64,000 nt of DNA from NCBI GenBank assembly GCA_016870115.1, contig VGCH01000001.1, positions 1 to 64,000 of the forward strand, given 5' to 3'. The DNA is from Alphaproteobacteria bacterium (GTDB taxonomy: Bacteria; Pseudomonadota; Alphaproteobacteria; Reyranellales; Reyranellaceae). The notes under the pieces were generated by a model. The model did not search any database. It had not been told where the DNA came from and saw only the letters and a program-made list of their open reading frames with translations. Within the stretch, counting starts at the first letter, position 1; each line of letters starts with the position of its first letter. A program made the translations under genes and the position numbers. This document shows, piece by piece, positions 4,763-54,495 of the stretch.

Positions 4763-5221
4763 TCACTTGCCCTTCTTGGCGCCGCCCAGCATTTCGGCGT
4801 GGCTGGCGACGCCCACGGCCTTGACCATCTCGAAGATGCGCTTGCGCACCCGCGCCTCTCGGATCTTGTAGTAGCCGCGCACCAATTCGAGGGTCTCGCG
4901 CTTGATCAGCGGATCCTTCTCCTGCTCGAACGGCGTGCCGACCTCGCCGAAGCCCTTGCGGCCACGGCCCGACATCGGGCGGCCCGCCAGAGCGTTGGCC
5001 GGCATTTCCTCGAAGAAGTACGACACCGGCACGTCCAGCACCTTGGCGAACTCGAACAGACGGCTGGAGCCGATGCGGTTGGACCCGCGCTCGTACTTCT
5101 GGATCTGCTGGAACGTCAGTCCGACCGCCGTGCCCAGCCGCTCCTGGCTCATGCCGAGCAACGTGCGACGCTGCCGCATACGAGCGCCCACATGGACATC
5201 AACGGGGTGCGATCTTGCCAT
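4763..5221 (-). CDS. XRE-family transcriptional regulator
   Basis: This 152-residue cytoplasmic regulator has an N-terminal Cro/C1-type helix-turn-helix at about residues 12–68, with the recognition helix in LTFQQIQKYERGSNRI. The C-terminal half is charged and helical and has no known ligand fold. It belongs to the small XRE regulators found between lnt and metK in many alphaproteobacteria. Its target genes are not known from the sequence. It lies 176 bases downstream of lnt, far enough to have its own promoter. Confidence 0.88.
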   Translation of the reverse strand: MARSHPVDVHVGARMRQRRTLLGMSQERLGTAVGLTFQQIQKYERGSNRIGSSRLFEFAKVLDVPVSYFFEEMPANALAGRPMSGRGRKGFGEVGTPFEQEKDPLIKRETLELVRGYYKIREARVRKRIFEMVKAVGVASHAEMLGGAKKGK

Positions 5222-32318: not shown

Positions 32319-32938
32319 GCCGGACGACCGCCAACCAGCCGCGTCACATGCGCCTGCCAGACATCGCGCGCTTCCTCTGGCGTGAGCCCCAGCCGCTGGC
32401 GCAGCACGATCCACCCTTCGGGTGTCAGCAGCGCGGCCGCGGCGTTGAGCACGTGGTCGCGCTCCCGCTCAGGTAGGCGCGCGAGTTCTGGATCAAGCCA
32501 CTGCGCGAGCCGCACCCGGCCAACGGTATAGAGGCGCTGGACCTGATCGAGCGCCGCTGACGAGCGGCGTTGCAGCGTGTCGACGAACGGCCAGATCGCG
32601 AGCCACTGTTCGAACCGCGCGGCCCGGTGCTCGACGACGATGCCGATGCGCTCAGCCAGCAGGCCGCCGGCCGCCGGTTCGGGAATCCCCGAGACCAGCC
32701 CAAGCAGGACCCGTCCAAGAACCTCGAGATAGAGATGTTCGGTATCGGTAAAGTGCTGAAACACAGTGCGCGCCGATACACCCGACGCGTCGGCGACATC
32801 ACGCACGACCGGCGCCGCCTGTCCGGCGAGGGCAAGTCCCATCGTCGCCGCGATGATGGAATCGCGAGTACGAGCAAGCTTGCCGCCAACCGCCCTCCGT
32901 CCTTCCTCGACGCCGGGCATCCTGATGTCCTTGTTCAT
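32315..32938 (-). CDS. TetR-family regulator
   Basis: The 207-residue protein has the TetR N-terminal helix-turn-helix (about 22–66; VRDVADASGVSARTVFQHFTDTEHLYLEVL) and an unassigned C-terminal ligand domain. ATG 32938 was chosen; the frame extends to 33061 without homology. It is divergent from a Cys/Met PLP-lyase gene across 171 bases that contain a perfect 13-bp palindrome, a possible operator. Its ligand is unknown. Confidence 0.87.
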   Translation of the reverse strand: MNKDIRMPGVEEGRRAVGGKLARTRDSIIAATMGLALAGQAAPVVRDVADASGVSARTVFQHFTDTEHLYLEVLGRVLLGLVSGIPEPAAGGLLAERIGIVVEHRAARFEQWLAIWPFVDTLQRRSSAALDQVQRLYTVGRVRLAQWLDPELARLPERERDHVLNAAAALLTPEGWIVLRQRLGLTPEEARDVWQAHVTRLVGGRPA

Positions 32939-51791: not shown

Positions 51792-52760
51792 TCAGTCGAG
51801 CTTCACACCAGCGGCCTTGACCGACGGCCCCCAGAGCTTGCGGTCGGCCGCAATGTGTTCGGCGATCGCCTTGCGTCCGGGTGTCACCACGTCGAGCCCC
51901 AGCTCATTCACGAAGCGCTCCTGCAGGTCCTTGTTGGCGAGGACTTCGGTCACCGCGGCCTCGAGGCGCGCGAGGATCGGTTCCGGAACGCCCGCCGGCG
52001 CGCCCATGCCGTACCACGAGGTGGCGACGAAGCCGGGCACCGTTTCGCCCACGGTCGGCAATTCCGGCGCCGCCCTAAATCTGGTCGGACCCGTGACGGC
52101 GAGGCCTCGCAGCTTGCCCGAGCGCACCTGCGGCAGCATGCCGGGCAGATTGCCGAACATCAGATGCACCTGGCCCGAGGCAAGGTCGTTGTAGGCGGCG
52201 CCGGCACCCCGGTAGGGCACATGCAACAGATCGACCCCCGCCATCACCTTGAACATCTCGCCGCTGAGATGGAGCGACGTGCCCGGCCCCGACGAGGCGT
52301 AGGCGTACTTGCCGGGTTCTTTCTTCGCGAGCTGGATCAGCGAGGCCACGTCGGTCACCGGCAGTGACGGCGTGGCGCCCAGCAGGTTGGCGAGCGTGGC
52401 AAGCAGCGAGATCGGCGCGATGTCGCGATCCGGATCGTAAGGCAGGCGGCTATAGAGCATCGGGTTGAGCGTGTGGCTCGCGACCGAAATCAGGCCGACC
52501 GTGTAGCCGTCGGGTGCGGCGCGCGCGAGTTCGGTGGTGCCGATATTGCCGCCCGCGCCGCCCTTGTTCTCGACCAGAACCTGCTGACCGAGGATCCGCT
52601 GCAAGGGATCGGCGACCAGCCGGCTCACCGTGTCGGTGCCGCCGCCCGGGACAAAGGGCACGATCCAGCGGAGCGGCTTCTGAGGCCATGCCTGGGCGTG
52701 GACCGCCGGGGCCGCGAGAAGCGAGGCCATTCCGACGACGACATGACGGCGACGCGGCAT
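51792..52760 (-). CDS. Bug/TctC-family substrate-binding protein
   Basis: The 322-residue periplasmic protein has a signal peptide (about 1–21, ending in AVHA) and the tricarboxylate-binding receptor fold. Landmarks are WPQKPLRWIVPFVPGGGTDTVSR and ENKGGAGGNIGT. Such proteins deliver small carboxylates to TctA/TctB, neither of which is in the window, so it is an orphan of the kind often found in this group. ATG 52760 follows GGGAGGGC. Confidence 0.92.
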   Translation of the reverse strand: MPRRRHVVVGMASLLAAPAVHAQAWPQKPLRWIVPFVPGGGTDTVSRLVADPLQRILGQQVLVENKGGAGGNIGTTELARAAPDGYTVGLISVASHTLNPMLYSRLPYDPDRDIAPISLLATLANLLGATPSLPVTDVASLIQLAKKEPGKYAYASSGPGTSLHLSGEMFKVMAGVDLLHVPYRGAGAAYNDLASGQVHLMFGNLPGMLPQVRSGKLRGLAVTGPTRFRAAPELPTVGETVPGFVATSWYGMGAPAGVPEPILARLEAAVTEVLANKDLQERFVNELGLDVVTPGRKAIAEHIAADRKLWGPSVKAAGVKLD

Positions 52761-52825
52761 TCGAGCCCTCCCTTGTTTTGGCGGACGATAGAGCGGGCGT
52801 CGGCGCTTGGCCATACTATGGCGGC

Positions 52826-54034
52826 ATGGCGCCTCCGCCTCCCGATCGCGCGCGCGACCTGCTGGCCCGACCCGACTTTCTCAAGTTGTGGCTGGTCGGC
52901 GCGTTCGCCAACGCCATGCGCTGGCTTGAGCTGTTGGCGTCGGGCCTGTTCGCCTATCAGGTGACCGAGTCGGCCTTCGCGGTCGCCGCCGTCGTGGCCG
53001 CGCGCCAGCTGCCGCAACTGTTGTTCGGCGCGCTGGCCGGCGCCATCGCCGAGGCGGTGAACCGGCGCACCATCCTGCTCGTCGCGCTCATTCTGCCGGC
53101 GGCGATCTCCGCGACGATTGCCGTACTCGCCGTCACCGAGGCGTTGCAGCTCTGGCAGATCGCGCTCGCCAACTTTGCCTGCGGCACGCTGTGGGCGAGC
53201 GAAATGTCGACCCGCCGCCGCATGGTGGGCGAAAGCGCCGGCGCAGATCGCGTGGGACAGGCGATCGCGCTCGACTCCACCACCTCCGCCGGCACCCGGC
53301 TGGCCGGACCGCTGCTGGGCGGGATCGCTTTCGAGTGGCTGGGCATGGCGTCGGCCTACACGCTCACGGCGGCGGTGCAGGCGCTGTGCGCGGTGGCGGT
53401 GCTCACCCTCGCCTACCGCCAGCGCACCGCGCCGATCGCGCTGGCGCAGCTGCCGCGCGACATCGCCGAGGGGCTCGCGTTTGCCCGCACGCAGCCTGAC
53501 ATCATGCTGGTGTTCGCCATCACGGTGGTCATGAACGCGTTCGCCTTCAGCTACACCGGCCTCGTCGCCCCGCTCGGCCAGGGCGAGTTCGGGGTTTCGC
53601 CGGCACTGGTCGGTGTGTTGGCGGCGGCTGAGCCGCTCGGCGCCCTGCTGGGCGGCGTGCTGCTCGCGACCGGCCGGGTGCGACCCGACGGGCGGCGCGC
53701 CTTTGTGGGCGGCACCTTCCTGTTCATGGTGGCGCTGCTCGCGCTGGCCGCATCGCCGGGCTTCGCGCTCGCCTTCGCCGCACTGGCGCTGGGGGGCCTC
53801 GGCACCGCGGGCTTCGGCAACATGCAATCGACCCTGGTGCTGACCGGCGCCCCGCCGCACTTGCGATCCCGGCTGATGGGTGTGGTCACGGTCTGCATCG
53901 GCACCGGGCCGCTCGGCGTGCTGGTCGCCGGGGCTCTTGCCGAAGCGGTCGGCACGCGGACCGCCATCGCGACGATGGCGGGCCTGGGCATCGTGCTCAC
54001 CGCGGCCGCCGTCCGGCGCTATCGCCGGCCCTGA
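52826..54034 (+). CDS. MFS transporter
   Basis: The 402-residue inner-membrane protein has about twelve helices and resembles the enterobactin-exporter-like MFS_3 group. The loop sequence AIAEAVNRRTIL holds the helix 2–3 motif in degenerate form. ATG 52826 is chosen because homology begins there. The substrate is unknown. It is the last plus-strand gene before the RNA candidate at 54034. Confidence 0.88.
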   Translation: MAPPPPDRARDLLARPDFLKLWLVGAFANAMRWLELLASGLFAYQVTESAFAVAAVVAARQLPQLLFGALAGAIAEAVNRRTILLVALILPAAISATIAVLAVTEALQLWQIALANFACGTLWASEMSTRRRMVGESAGADRVGQAIALDSTTSAGTRLAGPLLGGIAFEWLGMASAYTLTAAVQALCAVAVLTLAYRQRTAPIALAQLPRDIAEGLAFARTQPDIMLVFAITVVMNAFAFSYTGLVAPLGQGEFGVSPALVGVLAAAEPLGALLGGVLLATGRVRPDGRRAFVGGTFLFMVALLALAASPGFALAFAALALGGLGTAGFGNMQSTLVLTGAPPHLRSRLMGVVTVCIGTGPLGVLVAGALAEAVGTRTAIATMAGLGIVLTAAAVRRYRRP

Positions 54035-54215
54035 ATAGAGAAAGGCCGGTCGCTTGGGGAACGACCGGCCTCTCGTAGGAGCCCGCTGGGGTGGGGAAGG
54101 AACGAAGCCTATGGGGTGTGGGGAAGGGGCTTCGTCGGACGGCTTGGGGAGCCGTTGCGGGCTTTGGGGAACTTGGGGATGTGGCGCGCGGTGCGCTGCC
54201 TGTGGGTGAAGACCT
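54034..54215 (-). ncRNA. Candidate structured small RNA with repeated UCCCCA
   Basis: No protein frame fits here. Read on the minus strand, the stretch has UCCCCA six times within about 125 bases (plus-strand TGGGGA near 54055, 54092, 54119, 54145, 54165 and 54174). Two copies lie in the loops of perfect hairpins (10 bp, 54043–54071, and 6 bp, 54139–54155), and one lies in a larger loop closed by 8 bp (54102–54135). The last hairpin is followed by UUUCUCUAUU, so the RNA would run leftwards. C-rich loops are used by some alphaproteobacterial sRNAs to bind ribosome sites. The 5' end is not defined. Confidence 0.55.
54036..54071 (-). terminator. Rho-independent terminator of the RNA candidate
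   Basis: The arms AGGCCGGTCG and CGACCGGCCT (54062–54071 and 54043–54052 on the minus strand) form 10 perfect pairs around a 9-base loop and are followed on the minus strand by TTTCTCTATT. On the plus strand no T-run follows, so it does not look like the end of the MFS transcript. Confidence 0.65.
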
Positions 54216-54495
54216 TTAAGAGAATGAAAGCAAAGAATTAGCGAACGACTTAATAATGAGAGATTAACAGCGGGTTGGCTGAATGCCTATCTGCAAAAAC
54301 GCATATCTCGAGCCTGATGGGAGTCAAAAAAGCCAATGAAATCAAACGCCGTCAGAATCCTGATACACAGAAAGGGGGAGCAGAGGGCGTGCAGGAATCG
54401 GCCAAATCCGGACTTTATCTCTATTTTTCAATGAGATAGACGCGGGAAACGGCGAAAGCCCCGCGCAATGTCGGTGCAACAAGTTTTCGGTCGGA
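54216..54495. other. AT-rich intergenic region
   Basis: This stretch is much richer in A and T than its surroundings and holds no convincing gene; a short minus-strand frame across it lacks good codon use. On the minus strand it follows the molybdopterin gene and should contain that gene's terminator: TATCTC/GAGATA arms near 54415–54439 are one weak candidate. Its left part may contain the promoter of the RNA at 54034. Confidence 0.5.

Follow-up and report, generated by a model that had tools for sequence, protein, structure and literature searches.

A conserved structured RNA of Reyranellaceae, proposed as a trans-acting small RNA under TetR-type control

The minus strand near position 54,100 of the window, the 64,000-nucleotide stretch of DNA analysed here, carries what comparison among relatives strongly supports as a real, conserved structured RNA of Reyranellaceae, previously unlisted and absent from Rfam. 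We read it, with a probability of roughly 0.68, as a trans-acting small RNA of a new family that forms one regulatory unit with a dedicated TetR-type regulator. Under this proposal the cell very likely turns the RNA on and off as one output of a dedicated TetR switch. Since the family comes with a likely regulator, an operator and tens of natural variants, both its control and the role of its loops are directly testable.

A conserved structured RNA on the minus strand

The initial annotation had pointed to six UCCCCA motifs and perfect hairpins on the minus strand at 54034-54215, which is confirmed. TCCCCA occurs there six times (5' ends at 54179, 54170, 54150, 54124, 54097 and 54060), while dinucleotide shuffles of the segment contain 0.35 copies on average and reached six in 0 of 5000 trials. 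The minus strand folds with -72.8 kcal/mol, against -41.1 ± 3.4 for shuffles (z -9.3), and the plus-strand fold is unremarkable (z -1.3). In the fold an outer stem surrounds two hairpins, and a terminator-like hairpin of 15 pairs comes after it. Of the strong terminal hairpin with a U-rich tail described earlier, the hairpin stands with its 15 pairs, but the tail is modest (UCUAUU after a pairing UUUC) and a simple terminator scan did not call the hairpin as a terminator. The ends of the RNA were predicted, the 5' end from a conserved -10 box and the 3' end from the terminator hairpin; because the promoter conserved in relatives places the 5' end near 54254, the predicted RNA measures ~218 nt instead of the 150-190 bases first suggested. 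The features, in window coordinates, are as follows.

54037-54254, minus strand: predicted small RNA, ~218 nt (homologues and promoter alignment, folding)
54033-54167, minus strand: conserved RNA core, match to covariance model R1, 124.4 bits
54080-54163, minus strand: outer stem (54163-54157 with 54086-54080) around hairpins 1 and 2 (folding, covariation)
54139-54155, minus strand: hairpin 1, with a UCCCCA loop (folding, covariation)
54101-54136, minus strand: hairpin 2, with a long C-rich loop at 54127-54110 (folding, covariation, loop identity)
54087-54100, minus strand: C-rich junction strand CCUUCCCCACCCCA (folding, motif count)
54040-54074, minus strand: terminator hairpin with a nearly invariant UCCCCA loop, then UCUAUU at 54039-54034 (folding, covariation)
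54261-54269, minus strand: extended -10 box TG-T-TAATCT (aligned RNA and TetR promoters)
54289-54309, minus strand: putative TetR operator GAGATATGCGTTTTTGCAGAT, an imperfect dyad ATATGCR-N4-TGCAGAT (genome scan, family tally)
54037-54428, minus strand: duplicated block, 94% identical over 394 columns with C39:5813-6203 (intragenomic comparison)

The earlier suggestion of an undescribed small RNA family is strongly supported by covarying homologues in most Reyranellaceae. By BLAST the element turned up in 25 relatives, all from one other genus of the family; those with named records are Reyranella (R. massiliensis 521, R. soli, R. aquatilis), a strain labelled Enhydrobacter aerosaccus ATCC 27094 and many metagenome assemblies. 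A covariance model of 137 positions and 36 pairs matches 59 of 75 Reyranellaceae genomes, in two of the five genera, with the hairpins kept in close relatives. In a class-wide search of 385 genomes the model scored only 25-36 bits outside the family, on terminator-like matches shorter than the core. Two RNA-negative genomes of the main genus (G075 and G098) have a neighbouring operator-like site within 260 bases of a contig end; as several negatives of this genus look broken at the locus, 59 is probably a lower bound. The proposed check against Rfam (release 15) returned, for the whole window at gathering score, tRNA only and no family at the element, whose best weak matches at permissive thresholds had E values of 0.47 or worse.

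The genome to which the window belongs (3.56 Mb, 59 contigs) holds one further copy, at C39:5986-6203. The similarity between both copies extends into the upstream region, so that the duplication took in promoter, operator and RNA together. The C39 copy immediately precedes a TetR-type gene. The window copy lacks a TetR-type neighbour and runs into the end of a convergent gene (52514-54034, plus strand), which looks like a transporter and whose stop codon it adjoins. The window copy is a recent duplicate, the ancestral one being that upstream of the TetR-type gene. In the homologous loci examined, an RNA copy likewise precedes the TetR gene and shares its strand (copy A), and in many Reyranella a second is embedded in the end of that gene (copy B).

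Covariation was assessed on 90 copies, with rows fitted to the model; such fitting favours the structure, but not to the degree observed, with 98.0% of cells paired and two-sided changes in 24 of the 36 pairs (13.1 ± 1.6 in shuffles). The covariation score is 0.346, compared with 0.140 for shuffles and 0.023-0.065 when partners are slid by 1-3 columns. Since the two-sided changes largely separate the two kinds of copy, events were also counted on an independent tree of the TetR genes, with upstream copies only. This gave 17 two-sided compensatory events against 0-2 in slid controls, together with 22 one-sided events that keep the pair and 15 that break or repair it. In a first RNAalifold consensus, made from a mixed alignment (A1), misalignment of the two copy kinds had hidden the outer stem and hairpin 2; building the model from one kind and then realigning remedied this. 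A protein-coding reading of the core was rejected, as its lengths range from 126 to 181 nt and do not change in steps of three.

Across the 90 copies the hairpin-2 loop CCCUUCCCACACACCCC has identities mostly of 0.89-0.98, with a few positions at 0.75-0.84. Apart from the terminator loop UUCCCCAAG (0.94-1.00), no unpaired stretch is better conserved, while the outer base pairs of stems fall to 0.49-0.6. Loops better conserved than the outer stem pairs look like base-pairing seeds. UCCCCA occurs once in the core of 66 of the 90 copies and twice in 18; the sixfold repetition is peculiar to the genus of the window, most relatives having one or two copies of the motif.

Long-form copies (that of the window and upstream copies) have an extra 5' part, at 54181-54255 (minus strand) in the window, with a conserved AAAGGYNUU and a small GC-rich hairpin. 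One subgroup lacks this part entirely, and the RNA there begins near the outer stem. Three dispersed copies (L037, L039 and L148) all lie upstream of one same gene, 364-410 codons long, which carries the motif PPxTPRPVxxPTPEEVDRxGDxxFxKSIADL close to its start. Another (L149 3379-3511, G096:C227) sits just downstream of a tRNA-like sequence and may be released by tRNA processing; neither it nor the extra copy L150 has a recognisable operator just upstream.

The TetR-type partner, its putative operator and the embedded copy

The partner protein is predicted to be a TetR-type regulator from its Pfam and NCBIfam matches and its modelled fold. PF00440 (TetR_N) scores 25.2 bits in a relative (cut-off 24) and 18.9, below the cut-off, in the genome's own copy; NCBIfam matches also point to TetR, and the predicted structure is an all-helical TetR fold (pLDDT 85) whose nearest PDB entries are TetR regulators. 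Gene and RNA go together across the family: among the 59 RNA-positive genomes a close TetR homologue is absent from only two (G071 and G089), and only G025 has the homologue without the RNA. When 58 RNA and 55 TetR promoters were aligned, a common layout emerged, an operator AGATATGCATTTTTGCAnnTTAC followed at nearly fixed distance by TGnTAnnnT, an extended -10 box. The TetR gene has an operator and extended -10 of its own, downstream of the upstream RNA copy, and in the window copy and other dispersed copies an operator accompanies the RNA with no TetR gene alongside.

A scan of the 3.56-Mb genome that allowed up to 3 mismatches gave three operator sites in all, one each for the window RNA, the C39 RNA and the TetR gene. 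A stricter pattern, passed by one of these three sites, finds at least one site in every RNA-positive genome among 75 of the family; the 16 RNA-negative genomes together have one variant site, and the reversed pattern used as control has 2 matches in the 75 genomes. From this co-occurrence we infer that the TetR protein binds the operator. The operator is centred ~42-43 bases before the predicted start, which fits either repression or class II activation.

Most relatives also have a second element that resembles the operator in inverted form (like AGATAGGCATTTTTGGGTGATCT) and lies ahead of the main one at the TetR gene. In the window, 32342-32896 (minus strand) encodes a protein distantly related to the TetR regulator (97.7 bits); the genome-wide operator scan gave no site there.

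Copy B is absent from the genome of the window and from one Reyranella subgroup. The TetR stop codon has a constant position inside the hairpin-1 loop in all 32 examined loci with a downstream copy (for example L061 4130-4269), and the last TetR codons, usually CCC GTG GCG GTG GCC (Pro-Val-Ala-Val-Ala), supply the 5' arms of both the outer stem and hairpin 1. Copy B has no operator of its own in view; the TetR mRNA would end in it and yield another RNA with similar loops. That one TetR promoter makes, from a single mRNA, both the regulator and an RNA whose C-rich loops are similar to those of the separately transcribed upstream copy, and that ribosomes at the stop codon can influence how this RNA folds or is released, seems to us about an even bet. 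It is uncommon for the end of a regulator gene to serve also as a structured copy of an RNA probably under that regulator's control, and the layout suits the study of one sequence as code and RNA at once.

Proposed mode of action and alternative explanations

The RNA has the attributes of a trans-acting small RNA, as predicted from its sequence: a promoter and terminator of its own, a conserved structure and a gene away from that of its regulator. We propose that the TetR protein, bound at the operator, would switch the RNA and its own gene together in response to a ligand signal. The exposed C-rich loops (CCCUUCCCACACACCCC, UUCCCCAAG) would then base-pair with a restricted group of mRNAs at G-rich stretches, most probably those of ribosome sites, and thereby block translation or destabilise the mRNA.

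The initial annotation had compared the loops to anti-Shine-Dalgarno loops. Their C-rich character holds up, being conserved in hairpin 2 and the terminator, but for general pairing with ribosome sites a test on start regions gave no specific signal. Among 205 start regions in ~460 kb of the genome, UGGGGA is found in 1 and GGAG in 57. Pairing of the C-rich segments with these regions (-20 to -1) is ~1.3 kcal/mol better than with flanking stretches, while a reversed control sequence pairs with them nearly as well. Searching eight genomes for hairpin-2 loop complements, perfect or with one mismatch, revealed no conserved ribosome site; besides the RNA genes themselves the matches are mostly coding, three of them within the conserved GDGVWEG of an aminotransferase-like gene. 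The TetR leader has no G-rich site to pair with the RNA loops. As these target searches were null, the target step is one that we infer.

C-rich loops are also a feature of the CcsR (cuckoo) RNAs. In Rhodobacter sphaeroides CcsR1-4 are several homologous RNAs derived from the 3' end of a gene transcript, with ccaF1 (DUF1127) as the partner gene and control by RpoHI/RpoHII (PMC8307010, PMC10253847). The likeness lies in the alphaproteobacterial host, in the presence of several homologous RNAs and in the 3'-end origin, comparable to that of copy B, but the neighbour of the Reyranellaceae RNA is a TetR-type gene, no small DUF1127-like gene like the ccaF1 with which CcsR RNAs are co-transcribed was noticed upstream, and the CUCCUCCC-type CcsR motif is absent from its copies, whose loops read UUCCCC, CUCCCA and CUUCCCACACACCC. 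A broad RNA of this kind, repressing many mRNAs through Shine-Dalgarno pairing, would account for the C-rich loops and for the gain of start regions over flanks, and yet we hold it to be improbable, given the nearly equal gain of the reversed control, the scarcity of UGGGGA relative to GGAG and the missing CUCCUCCC motif. In RsaE/RoxS of Firmicutes the UCCCC seed motif, which pairs with Shine-Dalgarno sequences, is duplicated (PMC9217828); the motifs are alike, but structure, phylum and regulator differ and there is no Rfam match. The 6C RNA (RF01066) shares two hairpins with C-rich loops, while the Reyranellaceae RNA adds an enclosing stem and a terminator hairpin and belongs to another phylum; the 6C model gives the element 18.5 bits (E 4.7) against a gathering score of 47. 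Membership in 6C, RsaE or CcsR is not supported by these tests.

In layout, the system resembles Vibrio LuxR/HapR-Qrr, where a TetR-type regulator has sites at its own gene and at several redundant small RNA genes, and where the Qrr genes need sigma-54 and LuxO and target luxR mRNA (PMC2628434). The Reyranellaceae system is similar in having putative sites of this kind at the regulator's own gene and at RNA genes, but its promoter looks like a sigma-70 promoter with an extended -10, the RNA gene adjoins that of the regulator, in which one copy is embedded, and the TetR leader is devoid of a G-rich pairing site. Both this likeness of layout and the chemical likeness to UCCCC-seed RNAs are analogies. 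An open literature search found no paper on Reyranella small RNAs, and the small RNAs of this branch of Alphaproteobacteria appear unstudied.

Three further explanations were weighed against a trans-acting RNA. The RNA might instead be a decoy or scaffold whose repeated C-rich loops titrate an RNA-binding protein with no mRNA pairing, which would suit the several similar C-rich unpaired stretches in one RNA, the stronger constraint on loops than on much of the stems and the empty searches for target complements. We nevertheless regard it as unlikely, if the most plausible of the alternatives: the loops are unlike one another, that of hairpin 1 changes freely and carries the stop codon in embedded copies, and we know of no C-rich-binding partner in these bacteria. 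That copy A precedes the TetR gene in the same orientation could also suggest a cis-acting leader or attenuator of this gene, riboswitch-like in action. This is a shade less probable still than broad Shine-Dalgarno pairing, since the RNA has its own terminator-like hairpin, the TetR gene is served by a separate operator and extended -10 farther downstream, the window and dispersed copies keep the RNA, and often the operator, without the TetR gene, and the end of the window copy adjoins the stop codon of a convergent gene. Finally, two near-identical copies in one genome and extra copies at unrelated sites are what a DNA-level repeat, a mobile element remnant or a shared terminator with no RNA function would produce, but compensatory changes over tens of species, the orthologous position beside the TetR gene and the conserved promoter and operator make this very improbable indeed.

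An operator-like site upstream of an Xre-type gene and metK

An operator-like site is also found 110-140 bases upstream of an Xre-type gene, which is followed by a metK-like gene, in 7 of 8 Reyranella genomes examined (L141-L147). The Xre protein was considered as the operator binder and judged less likely. Its gene is 87-90% identical in genera devoid of the TetR gene, whose genomes all lack the motif; in the genome of the window, where the Xre gene lies at 5012-5221 (minus strand), there is no operator-like site near it and the motif stands instead at the TetR gene and the RNA genes. Its distribution therefore tracks TetR and not Xre. The Reyranella site at Xre-metK points to a possible link with S-adenosylmethionine metabolism.
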